A DNA stretch of 39,045 bases from Gammaproteobacteria bacterium (GCA_026196545.1 JAPHSZ010000190.1:1-39045), one strand, 5' to 3'. Shown: positions 19,279 to 30,738, numbered from the stretch's first letter. The notes: a model not told the origin generated them from the letters alone. A program made the numbers and translations.

Positions 19279-21903
19279 TCAACCGTTGCTATAAATAAGG
19301 CCACAGCGCACCAGCCACTTTTCAATCTCGACCGCGACCAGCACCAGTGAAGACAGTAGCAGGCACAGGACCAGTTCGAACATCGGCAATGCCTGGGTAT
19401 GGAAGATGTCATTCAGTACAGGCAGATATATCACCGCCAGTTGCAACAGCAGGGTCAATAGCACTGCGCCTAACATCGGCAGATTACTGAACAAACCAAT
19501 ACTGAACAGCGATGCCCTTTCGCTGCGAACAGCAAGTGAATGAAACAGTTGCGAGACAGTGAGCACGGTAAACACCATGGTCTGCCAGTAGGTTGCATTT
19601 CGTGAAATCGCCCAGGCCATGGCAGCAATCGACAGACCACCAATAAACAAGCCAACCCAGATAATGTGCTGCCACATGCCATGGGCAAAGATATTTTCCT
19701 GCGGTGGCCGCGGCGGGCGGGACATGATGTCCGGCTCGGCGGGTTCGGCGGTAAGTGCCAGCCCCGGCAGGCCGTCGGTGACCAGGTTGATCCAGAGAAT
19801 ATGAATCGGTAACAGCGGTATCGGCAGGCCGAGAAAGGGGGCGAGAAACAGTGTCAGGATTTCGCCCGAATTCGAGCTCATAGTGTATTTAATAAACTTG
19901 CGAATGTTGTCGAAGATGCGGCGACCGGCTCGCACTGCATGCACAATGGTGGTGAAGTCATCATCCAGCAACACCATGTCGGCGGCTTCACGTGCGACAT
20001 CGGTTCCCTGCAGGCCCATAGCAACACCGATGCCGGCTCGTTTTAACGCAGGGGCGTCATTGACACCATCGCCGGTCATGGCGACAAATTCACCGTTCTC
20101 CTGCAGGGCTTTGACGATGCGTATTTTCTGCTCGGGGCTAACGCGGGCATACACCCGGATAGATTCGACCCGCCGGGCAAACATTTCATCGGAGAGTTCT
20201 GCCAGCTCCTCTCCGCTCAAAATTTCCTGATCATGCCTGGCGATACCCAGGCGTCCTGCGATAGCCATGGCTGTGCCAACATGGTCACCGGTAATCATCA
20301 CCGGGGTTATGCCGGCACTTAAACAGTCGGCGATGGCCTGCGGCACTTCGAGTCGCGGTGGGTCAATCAGTGCGACCAGCCCGAGAAAGGTCAGATCCTG
20401 TTCAATTTTTTCCGGTTCAAGAGGCCCCGGTAAACTGGCAAATTCGCGCATGGCAAATGCCAGCACCCGGTAACCTTCACTGGCCAGGCGTTCCGCTTCC
20501 AGCAGCAGTATCTTGTCATCCAAAGCCATCGGGGCATCAATACCCGAGGCTTTGGTAGACTGCGCCAACAACCGCTCCGGTGCACCCTTGACGTAGGCAA
20601 GTACGGCCTCTGTTGACTGGTGCAGGGTGGTCATCTGTTTACGTTCGCTGCTAAAGGCAATCGCCGCCAGACGCGGATAACTCTGTTCCAGCGCGACCTT
20701 GTCAAAACCTGCTTTGGCCGCCGCTTCGAATAACGCCAGTTCGGTCGGCTCACCGGCAGGCTGACCATCTTTATCGGCAATATCGTTATTTAATGCCATG
20801 GCCTGCCCCAGCTGCGCAGCAACAACACTGGCGGCGGCATCCGGCAAGACATCACGCCACTCACCATCGACATAAAAGCGCTCAGCATTCATGCGGTTCT
20901 GGGTAAGCGTGCCGGTCTTGTCGGTGCAGATATAGGTAACCGAACCAAGGGTCTCCACCGCCGGTAGATTACGCACCAGCGCGTTATACCGGATTAGCTT
21001 ATGCGCCCCGAGGGTCAGCGAGATAGTTACCACCGCAGGCAGTGCTTCCGGTATCGCCGCCACCGCCAGGCTGATGGCAGTGAGGAACATCAGCATGACC
21101 GGCTGGCCCTGCAACAATCCGGCAGTAAAGACGATGGCGCAAATAGCCAGTACAGACAGTGCCAGGTAACGACCAAAGCGAGTCAGTCGAACCTGTAGCG
21201 GGGTTTTTACTCCGGCCTCAGCCTGCAATAGTCCGGCGATGCGGCCAATCTCGGTATTCAGGCCGGTCGCCACCACCACACCCACTCCGTGCCCGCGGGT
21301 AATCAGGCTGCTCTTGAAAGCCATATTCTGCCGATCACCGATGGCAAGATCCGCCCTGTTTAAGCCTGCTATTTGTTTTTCCACCGAATGTGATTCTCCG
21401 GTCAGCGCCGATTCATCAGCCTGCATTTCTTCGACTTCAAGCAGCCTCAGATCAGCGGGCACCACACTGCCCGCTTCCAGCACCACGACATCGCCCGGCA
21501 CCAGCTCTGCCGAAACCAGTGTCACCACCTGATCATCACGATAAACATGTGCTTCCGGCGCGGCCATTTCACGCAATGCGGCGACCGCACGTTCTGCCCT
21601 GAATTCCTGTACCGCTCCGATGATGGCATTGAGCAGAACGATGACCAGAATGGCGATGGTGTCCTGTGGCTCGCCGACAAAACCGGAGATCAACGCGGCG
21701 GCCAGCAGCACCATGATCATAAAATCGGCAAACTGGCCGAGCAATATGGCCAGCAGCGAACGTTGTTGTTTTTCAGGAATAACATTTTGGCCATGTTCGG
21801 CCAGACGTTTTTTTGCTTCGCTGGAAGTCAGCCCCGTTGCTGAAGATTCGAGGTACTGCAAAACCTCATCAGACTCCACACCGTGCCAGATGGGCGAGGC
21901 CAT
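19279..21903 (-). CDS. Ca2+-type P-type ATPase (PIIA family)
   Basis: An inner-membrane cation pump. I start it at ATG 21903 (874 residues), one base after the stop of the upstream membrane protein (TAAAATG), not at 21951. Key residues: TGES at 168-171, phosphorylated Asp328 in DKTGTLT, TGDGVNDAP hinge. The ion-binding residues of SERCA-type pumps are kept: Glu in PEALP (285-289), Asn678 and Glu681 in NSGE (M5), and Asn706, Thr709 and Asp710 in NLVTDG (M6). This supports Ca2+ transport, though Mn2+ or a broader range cannot be excluded. The start coupling ties it to the VIT1-like and DUF211 genes. Confidence 0.93.
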   Translation of the reverse strand: MASPIWHGVESDEVLQYLESSATGLTSSEAKKRLAEHGQNVIPEKQQRSLLAILLGQFADFMIMVLLAAALISGFVGEPQDTIAILVIVLLNAIIGAVQEFRAERAVAALREMAAPEAHVYRDDQVVTLVSAELVPGDVVVLEAGSVVPADLRLLEVEEMQADESALTGESHSVEKQIAGLNRADLAIGDRQNMAFKSSLITRGHGVGVVVATGLNTEIGRIAGLLQAEAGVKTPLQVRLTRFGRYLALSVLAICAIVFTAGLLQGQPVMLMFLTAISLAVAAIPEALPAVVTISLTLGAHKLIRYNALVRNLPAVETLGSVTYICTDKTGTLTQNRMNAERFYVDGEWRDVLPDAAASVVAAQLGQAMALNNDIADKDGQPAGEPTELALFEAAAKAGFDKVALEQSYPRLAAIAFSSERKQMTTLHQSTEAVLAYVKGAPERLLAQSTKASGIDAPMALDDKILLLEAERLASEGYRVLAFAMREFASLPGPLEPEKIEQDLTFLGLVALIDPPRLEVPQAIADCLSAGITPVMITGDHVGTAMAIAGRLGIARHDQEILSGEELAELSDEMFARRVESIRVYARVSPEQKIRIVKALQENGEFVAMTGDGVNDAPALKRAGIGVAMGLQGTDVAREAADMVLLDDDFTTIVHAVRAGRRIFDNIRKFIKYTMSSNSGEILTLFLAPFLGLPIPLLPIHILWINLVTDGLPGLALTAEPAEPDIMSRPPRPPQENIFAHGMWQHIIWVGLFIGGLSIAAMAWAISRNATYWQTMVFTVLTVSQLFHSLAVRSERASLFSIGLFSNLPMLGAVLLTLLLQLAVIYLPVLNDIFHTQALPMFELVLCLLLSSLVLVAVEIEKWLVRCGLIYSNG

Positions 21904-21904
21904 T

Positions 21905-22489
21905 TTAACGACCTGCAAACAGATAAATAAGCACGACGGTGACCACGGCAACTAACAAAGTCTGCAGGCCACTGCGTAGCCAGGAAATACCGGCGATGCT
22001 TCCCAGAAACATACCCAGTAGAAAGATCAATAATAAGGCGACAATGATGGCAGCGTAAAGCGGCGATAGCGGCAACACAATACCGGAAATGGATAGCCAT
22101 ATCGGCAACAGAATCAGAAATGAGATCAGTAGTGGTGCCAGACCATTCACCAGCGCGACCAACAACGGCACCCAGCGTGAGGCCTCACCGTGTGCACTAT
22201 CACCGAGGTCGCTGATCATCGCCTGCTCCAGTTTATCCAGCGCGTGCTTACGTTCGGCCGATTCACTGATGTAAGCGCTGCTCAAACCACTCATACCCAG
22301 TGCAATCGCCGCACCCAGGCAGACATTTATAATCACCGCTAAATCGTCAGATTCACTGACAATAAAACCGATGATCAAACCCAGCATGGTGAGTGCACCG
22401 TCAAAACCATTAACCACAAAATAGCGCCGAACAATATCCCGGCTGCGGCTGATATCAAGCAGAAATTTTACCTGGCCCAACATGTCCAT
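21905..22489 (-). CDS. VIT1/CCC1-like membrane protein (TIGR00267-like)
   Basis: A 194-residue membrane protein with about five helices. The N-terminal segment YFVVNGFDGALTMLGLIIGF matches the first helix of the VIT1/CCC1 (DUF125) iron/manganese transporter family, closest by memory to the TIGR00267 group. A cytoplasmic loop (ISESAERKHALDKLEQAMI) has the acidic/His character seen in the family. The ATG at 22489 is preferred to the TTG at 22492. Its stop is one base from the ATPase start and its start is six bases after the DUF211 stop. It may move divalent metal or act as an accessory subunit; substrate is inferred only. Confidence 0.82.
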   Translation of the reverse strand: MDMLGQVKFLLDISRSRDIVRRYFVVNGFDGALTMLGLIIGFIVSESDDLAVIINVCLGAAIALGMSGLSSAYISESAERKHALDKLEQAMISDLGDSAHGEASRWVPLLVALVNGLAPLLISFLILLPIWLSISGIVLPLSPLYAAIIVALLLIFLLGMFLGSIAGISWLRSGLQTLLVAVVTVVLIYLFAGR

Positions 22490-22495
22490 CAATCT

Positions 22496-22765
22496 CTAAG
22501 CAGGATCGGTTTCGCTTTGCACTTCGACCTCATCAATACTATGCAGTGAACCACCTAGATCTTTGATCACCACCTGAATGGCTTCAAAATCAATCGCGCT
22601 TCCCGTTACCTCTATTTGAATGGTTTCAGTATTTTCATCCACTTCGAGCACGATCAGGTGCACACAATAATCGATGCCAACTTTGGCAATGGCCTGTGAA
22701 AATTCCAGCGCATTCGGCTGATGCGGTTTAAGCACATCCAAAACAATCCGTTTGACATAAACCAT
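22496..22765 (-). CDS. DUF211 protein
   Basis: An 89-residue, soluble, beta-alpha-beta protein beginning MVYVKRIVLDVLKPHQPNAL and ending in GGSLHSIDEVEVQ, which are the signature ends of DUF211. This family is known mostly from archaea (for example MTH889) and has a ferredoxin-like fold. Its biochemical role is not established. First gene of the DUF211-VIT-ATPase run; GGGGG lies about nine bases before its ATG. A regulatory or ion-sensing role for the pump is plausible but is inference from position. Confidence 0.85.
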   Translation of the reverse strand: MVYVKRIVLDVLKPHQPNALEFSQAIAKVGIDYCVHLIVLEVDENTETIQIEVTGSAIDFEAIQVVIKDLGGSLHSIDEVEVQSETDPA

Positions 22766-23065: not shown

Positions 23066-24433
23066 ATGAACCCAGTAACTGCTAACATCGAACAGGAAGA
23101 GGAACCACATCAGGTTGATTTCATCATCGGTCTTTTAAAAGCCGAAGATGACATCGCCGTCAGCACATACCTTGAGCATCAGCATGCGGCTGAAATCGCC
23201 GGTCTACTGGAATCACTGCCGCCTGAATTACGTCAACAACTGTGGAAGTTACTGCCACAGAGCGTAGAGGGCGAGACTCTTACTTACCTCGGCGATGAAG
23301 TCCGAAATAGCATCATTGGTGAAATGGAACATGCCGATGTAATCACCGCCACCGAAAGCATGGAAGTGGAAGACCTCGCCGATGTCATGGATGAACTGCC
23401 AGAAGACATCAGCGAAGCAGTGCTGGAATCACTGGACGAGGATCGTCGGCAACGCCTGGAAAACACGCTTTCCTTTGCCGATAACAGTGCGGGTCGACTG
23501 ATGAGTTCAGACGTTATCAGCGTACGCCAGGACGTCTCATTAGCCGTAGTACTGCGTTATTTGCGACGCCTGAAACCGCTGCCACATCATACTGATGCCC
23601 TGATGGTGATTGACGAACACGGCACTTATCTGGGCAAATTAACCCTCGCTGACACCGTGACTGAAAACCCTGATGCTCAGGTTTCTGAAATCATGCAGAC
23701 TACCACCGTTTCAGTTCAGGCTAGCGCCAACGAACATGACGTTGCGGTGCTATTCGAACGACGAGACCTTATCTCGGTGGCTGTTGTCGATGAACAGAAT
23801 AAACTGCTGGGACGTATCACTGTTGATAACGTCGTCGACATCATTCTGGCTGAAGCAGATAAAGCCTTACTCGCCAGTGCTGGACTAGTTGAAGATGAAG
23901 ACCTTTTTGCCGCAGTATTACCCAGTGCAAAACGTCGCGCCATCTGGCTGGGCATCAACCTCATTACCGTCTTTATGGCCGCCTGGGTGATAGGTCGCTT
24001 TGAACTGGTATTAGACAAATTCGTCGCCCTGGCTGTATTGATGCCCGTAGTCGCCAGCATGGGTGGCATCGCGGGTAGCCAGACCTTGACCCTGACCATT
24101 CGTGGTCTTGCACTGAACCAGGTAAGTAGCGCCAACCTGCGCTGGCTGAGCAACAAGGAACTGGCCGTGGGTTTATTGAATGGCTTTGCCTGGGCCATGG
24201 TGGTGGCAATAGTGACCTACTTCTGGTTTCAGGAGGCAGGCATTGCGCTGATTATTGCAGCTGCCATGATGCTTAACCTGATTGCGGCCGCCTTTTCCGG
24301 TGTTTTGATTCCAATCGTATTAACCCGTATGGGCATAGACCCGGCACTCTCCGGTGCAGTGGTTTTGACCACGGTCACTGACATCGTCGGCTTCCTGAGT
24401 TTTCTCGGACTGGCGACGCTGTTTCTTCTATGA
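23066..24433 (+). CDS. mgtE: Magnesium channel/transporter MgtE
   Basis: MgtE is a Mg2+-gated Mg2+ channel of the inner membrane. The 455-residue protein has the N-domain of acidic helices (about 20-135; DDIAVSTYLEHQHAAEIAGLLESLPP), the CBS pair (about 145-260; GRLMSSDVISVRQDVSLAVVLRYLRR), a plug helix, and five membrane helices from about 290. The pore Asp is Asp439 in TVTDIVGF, and PVVASMGGIAGSQTLTLTIRG is the TM2 signature. Length is standard. The ribosome binding site is not evident. It diverges from the DUF211-VIT-ATPase genes. Confidence 0.96.
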   Translation: MNPVTANIEQEEEPHQVDFIIGLLKAEDDIAVSTYLEHQHAAEIAGLLESLPPELRQQLWKLLPQSVEGETLTYLGDEVRNSIIGEMEHADVITATESMEVEDLADVMDELPEDISEAVLESLDEDRRQRLENTLSFADNSAGRLMSSDVISVRQDVSLAVVLRYLRRLKPLPHHTDALMVIDEHGTYLGKLTLADTVTENPDAQVSEIMQTTTVSVQASANEHDVAVLFERRDLISVAVVDEQNKLLGRITVDNVVDIILAEADKALLASAGLVEDEDLFAAVLPSAKRRAIWLGINLITVFMAAWVIGRFELVLDKFVALAVLMPVVASMGGIAGSQTLTLTIRGLALNQVSSANLRWLSNKELAVGLLNGFAWAMVVAIVTYFWFQEAGIALIIAAAMMLNLIAAAFSGVLIPIVLTRMGIDPALSGAVVLTTVTDIVGFLSFLGLATLFLL

Positions 24434-29137: not shown

Positions 29138-29629
29138 GTGACCAACAACGACATCCTGCGCCGTATCCGCTACACCTTCGACCTGAGCGACTCAAAAATG
29201 ATCGCCATTTTTGGCCTGGCCGATTGCGAGGTGACTCGCGCCCAGATTAGTGACTGGCTGAAAAAAGACGATGATCCTGCATACCAGAATTGCAGCGACA
29301 CCCAGCTGGCCACTTTCCTGAATGGTTTCATTATTGAAAAGCGCGGCAAAAAAGACGGTGACCAGCCCGTGCCGGAAAAACGTTTGAGCAATAACATCAT
29401 TTTCCGGAAACTGAGGATCGCACTAAACCTGAAAGATGAAGATATATTCAAAATCATGGATCTGGCTGACTTCAGCATCAGCAAGCCCGAGTTGAGCGCC
29501 CTGTTCCGTAAAGCGGGACACAAGCACTATCGTAAATGCAAGGACCAGATTTTGCGTAAATTTCTGAAAGGCATGCAGCTCAAATATCGCGATAATGTTG
29601 AAAAAAGAAAAGAATTTGAATGGCAGTAA
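29138..29629 (+). CDS. DUF1456 (YehS-like) protein
   Basis: A 163-residue cytoplasmic protein with two copies of a helical repeat: NNDILRRIRYTFDLSDSKMIAIFGLAD at 2-28 and NNIIFRKLRIALNLKDEDIFKIMDLAD in the second half, each followed by a small acidic/basic segment ending in a QLATFLNG or QILRKFLKG helix. The layout matches DUF1456 (YehS), whose function is unknown. GTG start at 29138 with AAGAG upstream. Its end overlaps the region before lrgA. Confidence 0.9.
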   Translation: MTNNDILRRIRYTFDLSDSKMIAIFGLADCEVTRAQISDWLKKDDDPAYQNCSDTQLATFLNGFIIEKRGKKDGDQPVPEKRLSNNIIFRKLRIALNLKDEDIFKIMDLADFSISKPELSALFRKAGHKHYRKCKDQILRKFLKGMQLKYRDNVEKRKEFEWQ

Positions 29630-29645
29630 TTCGGGATTTAATCCG

Positions 29646-30014
29646 ATGAATTTCCTGCCAGGCATAAGCCTGCTTTTAATCTACCAGCTGGCTGGCGAAC
29701 TCTGTGTCAAGCTGCTTGACATTCCCGTGCCCGGCCCGGTCGTAGGTATGCTCATGCTTTTTTTAACGCTGGTCATCCGGGGGCAATCAGGCAAGGCACT
29801 GGACTCATCATCAGGCGCATTGTTGAGCCATCTGTCACTGCTTTTTGTACCCGCGGGCGTTGGCATCATGGTTCATTTTGACCGTATTGTTAACGAATGG
29901 CAGGCTATTAGTATCGCCTTAATACTAAGCACAATAATTACTATAGTGATGACTGCTTTGATTATGCTGGGCGTCAATCAGCTGCTTTCAGGCAAGGGAC
30001 AGAACGATGCCTGA
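29646..30014 (+). CDS. LrgA/CidA-family membrane protein
   Basis: A holin-like protein of about 122 residues with four membrane helices. I start it at ATG 29646; the frame from 29595 would add 17 polar residues that overlap the DUF1456 gene. The segment LDIPVPGPVVGMLMLFLTLV and SHLSLLFVPAGVGIMVH match the CidA/LrgA family. Members act with LrgB in envelope stress, autolysis or export of small metabolites. Its end overlaps lrgB by eight bases. Confidence 0.93.
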   Translation: MNFLPGISLLLIYQLAGELCVKLLDIPVPGPVVGMLMLFLTLVIRGQSGKALDSSSGALLSHLSLLFVPAGVGIMVHFDRIVNEWQAISIALILSTIITIVMTALIMLGVNQLLSGKGQNDA

Positions 30015-30738
30015 ATCTGATTTTTTCAGCATCTGGGTTTATTTATCGAGCTCACCATTATTGGGCCTGAGCATGACCGTGCTCACCTACAGCCTGGCTT
30101 ACCGGCTTTATATTTATGCGAACTCAAACTCTCTCCTGAACCCGGTGCTGACCAGCGTTAGCCTGTTAATTGTTTTTCTTTCGGTAACCGACATTTCCTA
30201 CGAGGCCTATTTTGAAGGCGGCCAGTTCATCCACTTTTTACTCGGCCCGGCAACCGTGGCGCTGGCAATACCTTTGTACCAGCAATTAGCCAAACTAAAA
30301 AAAGCCTGGCTACCGATACTCATCACCGTTGTTTCCGGCGTTATGATTGGCGCTTTCAGCTCAATCAGTATTGCCTGGCTTTTAGGGGCCAGCACAGAAA
30401 CACAATTGTCACTTGCGCCCAAGTCGGTGACCACACCTGTGGCCATGGGCATTTCAGAATTGATCGGTGGCCTGCCCTCACTCACCGCCATTTTAGTCGT
30501 GATTACCGGCATCATCGGCGCAGTCATTGGTACAAAAATATTTGCACTGATGCGCATAAAAGATGACAGCATAAAGGGCATGGCCATGGGCATTACCGCG
30601 CACGGTATCGGCACTGCCCGCGCCTTTCAGGTCAGTTCGGAAATGGGCGCATTTTCAGGCCTGGCGATGGCACTGTCCGCCTTTGCCAGTGCGGTGACCT
30701 TACCGTGGTTGCTCAATTTAGTCGGGCTAATAAATTAG
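30007..30738 (+). CDS. LrgB/CidB-family membrane protein
   Basis: A 243-residue inner-membrane protein of the LrgB family, which pairs with LrgA. FLLGPATVALAIPLYQQ, LAPKSVTTPVAMGISELIGGLPSLTA and GMAMGITAHGIGTARAFQ are family signatures. It overlaps the lrgA-like gene by eight bases, so the two are coupled. AAGGG precedes the ATG. A small Cys-rich protein gene follows two bases after its stop. Confidence 0.95.
   Translation: MPESDFFSIWVYLSSSPLLGLSMTVLTYSLAYRLYIYANSNSLLNPVLTSVSLLIVFLSVTDISYEAYFEGGQFIHFLLGPATVALAIPLYQQLAKLKKAWLPILITVVSGVMIGAFSSISIAWLLGASTETQLSLAPKSVTTPVAMGISELIGGLPSLTAILVVITGIIGAVIGTKIFALMRIKDDSIKGMAMGITAHGIGTARAFQVSSEMGAFSGLAMALSAFASAVTLPWLLNLVGLIN

Follow-up and report, generated by a model that had tools for sequence, protein, structure and literature searches.

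The closest described relatives of the transporter considered here are the VIT1/CCC1 proteins (EgVIT1, Protein Data Bank (PDB) entries 6iu3/6iu4, Pfam family PF01988), which carry a cytosolic metal-binding domain (helices H1–H3) and whose metal site in EgVIT1 consists of E102, E105, E113, E116, M149 and E153 (PMC8247066). MbfA and the plant VTL proteins have no cytosolic loop, MbfA bearing a ferritin-like domain (PMC7540006). How archaea export Ca2+, Mn2+ and Fe2+ is poorly known. DUF211 proteins, which are conserved throughout several archaeal lineages and have had solved structures since 2007, were still listed as uncharacterised in 2022 (PMC9425974). Here we analysed a stretch of 39,045 nucleotides from a member of the Gammaproteobacteria (GCA_026196545.1, JAPHSZ010000190.1:1-39045; hereafter the window), in which a DUF211 gene is followed by genes for a small loop-less VIT-family protein (hereafter the short VIT) and for a Ca2+-ATPase-like pump:

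22496..22765, minus strand, DUF211 protein (PF02680/COG1888), 89 residues, by Pfam match
21905..22489, minus strand, short loop-less VIT-family membrane protein, TIGR00267-like, 194 residues, five helices
22196..22219, minus strand, codons 91–98 of the short VIT, encoding the linker of eight residues that joins predicted helices 2 and 3, by structure model
19279..21903, minus strand, P2A-type Ca2+-ATPase-like pump, 874 residues, by Pfam domains

The preliminary description of these genes as a tight trio was confirmed in its coordinates, its Pfam families and its gaps of six bases between DUF211 and VIT (22490–22495) and one base between VIT and ATPase (21904). The arrangement is not due to chance, because the DUF211–VIT neighbourhood recurs in two domains of life, and the conclusion that DUF211 and the loop-less VIT form a single functional unit in archaea and bacteria is well supported by the genomic evidence. 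Among 274 Gammaproteobacteria (here, as in all samples, species representatives, many of them metagenome-assembled genomes, MAGs), 30 carry DUF211. A profile made from an alignment of the short VIT (A2), with matches above 200 bits taken as strong, found the transporter in 27 of these 30 genomes and in none of the 244 DUF211-negative ones. The three genomes left over are G215, where a contig ends, G273, whose DUF211 is truncated, and G267, in which the neighbour of DUF211 is a 175-residue VIT1-like protein that scores 24 bits, below the cut-off. Weak matches to the profile occurred in 16 further Gammaproteobacteria, all devoid of DUF211, and the three of these that were read are longer proteins matched by the whole VIT1 profile. 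Across 37 proteobacterial DUF211 loci, the window's included and five from another class, the VIT gene lies directly downstream of DUF211 on the same strand in 32; the others have a divergent VIT (L032), a VIT truncated where the contig ends (L054), or one that is absent or could not be judged (L040, L059 and L148).

The same association was found in archaea. In the phylum of Halobellus (genome G575; 158 genomes), where matches with E < 1e-15 were counted, the short VIT was present in 68 of the 69 DUF211-positive genomes and in none of the 89 negative ones. At least 15 of these DUF211–VIT pairs adjoin and the rest lie apart; the co-occurrence is therefore not accounted for by physical linkage. 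In the phylum of G568 (151 genomes), a strong short-VIT match was obtained in 52 of 76 DUF211-positive genomes and in one of 75 negative genomes. We considered whether the VIT is missing from many genomes of this phylum and rejected this as mostly a sensitivity artefact, since divergent short VITs adjoin DUF211. Among the 24 misses, four have a weak VIT match, and twelve have a more divergent short VIT next door, of 156–175 residues, starting right after DUF211 and in most cases overlapping it by one base; in three others a membrane protein of 161–165 residues lies directly downstream, and in G737 the sole VIT-like match is a weaker one that lies elsewhere in the genome. At four loci (L351, L356, L363 and L365) a protein of 244–259 residues replaces the VIT after DUF211, that of L351 being weakly Bud32 kinase-like. 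DUF211 comes first in 19 pairs of this phylum, VIT comes first in 13 and the genes are on opposite strands in two; because both orders and opposite-strand pairs occur within one phylum, the linkage must have arisen more than once. Taken together, the short VIT almost always implies DUF211, while DUF211 only mostly implies the short VIT.

Membership of the short VIT in the VIT family, as claimed in the preliminary description, stands, and its likeness to VIT1/CCC1 proper ends at the loop between transmembrane helices TM2 and TM3, which holds most VIT1 metal ligands and is missing here. The protein scored 35.3 bits with PF01988 (cut-off 28.1), only profile positions 127–212, the C-terminal half, being matched. 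The best curated model for both bacterial and archaeal short VITs is the NCBIfam hypothetical equivalog TIGR00267, a family without an assigned function; every short VIT tested scores under its cut-off, including that of the window (65.9 bits against 156.95). Haloferax volcanii, a DUF211-bearing haloarchaeon, likewise has a match to TIGR00267. An AlphaFold2 model, built from only four sequences (pLDDT 79), has five helices and a TM2–TM3 linker of eight residues, and its only confident fold matches were 6iu3 and 6iu4 (TM-score 0.64–0.68). The short-VIT profile aligned to chain residues 17–96 and 146–216 of 6iu3 and skipped 97–145, so the five-helix fold is common to both, whereas helices H1–H3 of EgVIT1 have only the linker as their counterpart. 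The short VIT further differs from VIT1/CCC1 proteins in its size (about 194 residues) and in its tie to a separate DUF211 protein. Conserved residues include an FDG motif (D30), E76 and E79. With the chain numbering of 6iu3 offset by 21, the alignment showed that the EgVIT1 ligands M149 and E153 are absent and that only E102 has a conserved aligned glutamate (E88). Invariant D30 aligns with the pore aspartate of EgVIT1, D43, and G68 with its pore methionine, M80. In the window's protein Pfam found a VIT domain and nothing else, an N-terminal ferritin-like domain of the MbfA type not being present.

The DUF211 protein belongs clearly to its family (PF02680, 93.3 bits against a gathering cut-off of 22.1). 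Its model (37 sequences, pLDDT 92) has a ferredoxin-like fold, with strands predicted at residues 2–14, 34–42, 46–54 and 73–84 and helices at 19–27 and 60–69, and matched the family structures 3bpd, 2raq (MTH889; TM-score 0.86–0.88 for these two) and 2x3d (SSO6206). Family and fold are thus common to the window's protein and these DUF211/COG1888 structures, while the C-terminal tail AGxxxVEEVxTxQD, conserved in archaeal DUF211 proteins (alignment A3), is absent from the former. The PDB entries of these relatives hold 7, 14 and 8 chains. Near-invariant residues are D10, K13, H15, E41, D43, H75, S76 and D78, and these, together with R6, are among the residues conserved in at least 84 of 89 VIT-paired DUF211 proteins; the acidic residues and histidines of this set could be putative cation ligands. 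Beyond the family, structure search returned weak matches, with E values of about 2e-3 or worse, among them those to CPII, a PII-like protein, and to the nickel-sensing domain of NikR. At one locus (L278:4464-5498), an open reading frame of 345 residues ends with DUF211, in frame, and looks by eye like a glutamine amidotransferase in its N-terminal part; either the two are fused or DUF211 starts in frame at an internal methionine.

The ATPase carries Cation_ATPase_N, E1-E2_ATPase, hydrolase and Cation_ATPase_C domains with a DKTGT site (Pfam), and the nearest solved structure is the Listeria Ca2+-ATPase LMCA1 (lmo0841; E 1.6e-182). It scored below the NCBIfam equivalog cut-offs for both SERCA-type (TIGR01116, 628.5 against 703.4) and PMR1-type pumps (TIGR01522, 713 against 798.3). 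The SERCA-type residues named in the preliminary description, PEALP (E286), N678/E681 and N706/T709/D710, are present; they would correspond to E309, N768, E771, N796, T799 and D800 in SERCA numbering, where E908 is the seventh. Near the place of E908 in TM8 the window's pump has Q785, and the haloarchaeal partner ATPases have a glutamate in that segment. Domains, DKTGT and the E/N/E/N/T/D residues are therefore shared with the known P2A Ca2+-ATPases (LMCA1, SPCA1/PMR1 and SERCA), from which the window's protein differs in PEALP for PEGLP, in Q785 and in belonging to a separate clade. All trio ATPases retain PE(A/G)LP, N, E, N, T and D, of which other P2A groups miss some, and those of Proteobacteria form one clade (SH-aLRT 100), separate from the other P2A ATPases of these genomes and from those that partner the haloarchaeal pairs. 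The source genome has a second P2A-type ATPase (L324, G000:C40:5548-8202), 40% identical and of a different group, without several SERCA-type ion-site residues.

Members of the trio clade were found in 18 of 28 DUF211-positive Gammaproteobacteria, a count that includes one pseudogene, one relic and one genome with fragments only, against one of 16 DUF211-negative genomes (Fisher p 2e-4); the other 10 DUF211-positive genomes showed no ATPase of the clade. The pump gene directly follows VIT in 14 of the 32 proteobacterial pairs and is intact in 12, being broken in L041 and L053, and at L034 a 42-residue ATPase relic is all that follows an intact DUF211–VIT pair. The pair thus persists where the pump has been lost. 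Of six haloarchaeal loci, five have a SERCA-like ATPase next to the pair or close to it, upstream, downstream or convergent, and no adjoining ATPase was detected at the other archaeal pairs examined. The complete trio module put forward in the preliminary description is thus a real gene set with DUF211 and VIT as its core and the pump as an optional part.

Because DUF211 is present almost wherever the short VIT occurs, the two are suggested to work as one metal-export device, and we consider it rather probable that this locus specifies a divalent-cation exporter of two components, to which a pump is optionally added. In this device, the short VIT would be a five-helix antiporter moving a divalent cation out of the cytosol, with D30 in the role of the VIT1 pore aspartate, and DUF211 would capture or gate the metal on the cytosolic face, performing in trans the task of the built-in VIT1 loop and perhaps of the fused ferritin-like domain of MbfA. 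MbfA resembles the DUF211–VIT pair in combining a membrane part with a soluble metal-handling domain and differs in that its partner is fused and ferritin-like, whereas here it is a separate ferredoxin-fold protein without any ferritin feature. The separate DUF211 protein may thus be a third way, besides the built-in loop and the fused domain, for VIT proteins to gain a cytosolic metal-handling part. Where present, the SERCA-like ATPase would export the same metal using ATP. Since the trio ATPases keep the SERCA-type residues and haloarchaeal pairs adjoin a SERCA-like ATPase, Ca2+ is favoured as the first candidate, with Mn2+ or Fe2+ next on account of the VIT family. As a fuller explanation, which we put forward tentatively, DUF211 may be a metal-binding subunit that forms rings, is detachable and stands in for the VIT loop, and the loop-less VITs a widespread class of two-component divalent-cation (probably Ca2+) exporters of archaeal origin, joined independently by a SERCA-like pump in haloarchaea and in Proteobacteria. 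The near-strict tie to one transporter class provides the first concrete testable role for DUF211; in the open-access literature we found no paper tying DUF211, COG1888 or arCOG04140 to VIT or CCC1 (subscription journals and preprints were outside the search) and none on MTH889, SSO6206 or TIGR00267.

Several observations weigh against this proposal. The Fisher p values of the three co-occurrence comparisons (1e-44, 3e-34 and 2e-20) are descriptive, as they ignore shared ancestry. DUF211 occurs without a detected short VIT in all five Thermococci and both DHVE2 genomes, in two Hadesarchaea-type MAGs and in one Methanobacteriaceae MAG; very divergent VITs elsewhere in these genomes could escape the search, and none of the neighbours read is a membrane protein. 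At the thermococcal loci that were read (L107 and L085, and the downstream side of L124), DUF211 sits with small gaps between two ArsR-type helix-turn-helix proteins, so it can also work without the short VIT. DUF211 has a second context here, probably a regulatory one, which agrees with a link to ArsR-type regulators noted before (PMC9425974). Conversely, G745 has a short VIT without DUF211, on a contig of 13.8 kb. A ring of seven or eight DUF211 subunits has no obvious fit to a twofold VIT dimer, no natural DUF211–VIT fusion was found (the N-terminal stretch at L278 is not a VIT), and, judging by the alignment of G68 with M80, substrate and chemistry of the short VIT may differ from those of EgVIT1. 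As to whether DUF211 is scattered without its partners, a question raised in the preliminary description, it mostly does not occur without VIT, the Thermococci being the chief exception. Their DUF211 loci include L107, L105, L085 and L124, and one DUF211-bearing Thermococcus genome (G566) has, in place of any short VIT, an MbfA-like rubrerythrin–VIT fusion (L156; PF02915 and PF01988).

This fusion, together with the fact that iron is the main substrate of VIT/CCC1 and MbfA proteins (PMC7540006), favours Fe2+ (or Mn2+) as the substrate, with DUF211 as an iron chaperone like the ferritin-like domain of MbfA and the ATPase link secondary. Such a role is compatible with our explanation and somewhat unlikely in our judgement, since a SERCA-like ATPase accompanies the pair in both archaea and bacteria and the EgVIT1 pore methionine is not kept. 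The main rival holds that DUF211 is a PII-like regulator, which, on sensing a metal or metabolite, would open the short VIT or plug it, much as GlnK acts on AmtB, with no part in transport. The ferredoxin-like fold, the resemblance to NikR and CPII and the ArsR-type neighbours in Thermococci are in keeping with it, but fold matches to proteins of other families are weak, most of the invariant residues are acidic or histidine, and no nucleotide-binding motif was seen; we regard it as unlikely.

A stricter version of the module, in which pump, transporter and soluble partner are all required for Ca2+ homeostasis, would account for the intact adjoining ATPases, the enrichment of their clade with DUF211 and the haloarchaeal loci in their varied positions. 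It is quite improbable in view of the DUF211-positive Gammaproteobacteria without the clade, the pseudogenes and relic beside intact pairs, and the archaeal pairs beside which no pump was detected. Co-inheritance without interaction, as a neutral operon or through retention in the same lineages, is in our estimate very improbable: in Proteobacteria the set has a patchy distribution and has passed from one class to another (f191 genomes being among the kin of the window), and the p values take no account of phylogeny, but both gene orders, opposite-strand pairs and the genome-wide co-occurrence of distant genes speak against it, and longer VIT genes show no tie to DUF211.

With regard to history, the trees of DUF211, VIT and ATPase, whose comparison had been proposed as a check, each unite the sequences from Proteobacteria in a single clade and give the window the same closest kin, namely G132, G184 and f191 genomes (another class). 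Tree distances of DUF211 and VIT correlated at 0.77 in Proteobacteria and 0.45 for non-adjacent archaeal pairs, with none of 2000 permutations as high, a correlation that owes partly to shared species history. The distribution of the set is patchy, since G137 and G250, from two further genera of the family to which the window's organism belongs, have no DUF211. The VIT tree nests the proteobacterial clade among archaeal sequences with moderate support (80–88), making a single old transfer of DUF211 and VIT from archaea plausible. The transfer raised in the preliminary description survives in this old form; a recent one, judged by composition, was rejected, as the GC content of the trio (0.44–0.56) is inside the range of the window. 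Because of this unremarkable composition and of neighbours that are ordinary gammaproteobacterial genes, the trio represents neither contamination from archaea nor a recent insertion in its source genome (2.67 Mb, 237 contigs).

The gene mgtE, which the preliminary description had set opposite the trio, is indeed present and divergent from it:

23066-24433, mgtE (TIGR00400, 299 bits against a cut-off of 232.75)

It is not conserved beside the set, and membership of MgtE in the module was rejected, no MgtE adjoining DUF211 in the other 29 loci searched. No riboswitch (for example the Mn2+ element yybP-ykoY or Mg2+ elements) was found upstream of the set in the window or in 20 related loci; promoter scans gave no signal above background, and terminator scans gave nothing decisive. 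Elsewhere in the window, at 29595-30738, two adjoining membrane genes resemble by eye the LrgA/LrgB (CidA/CidB) pair.

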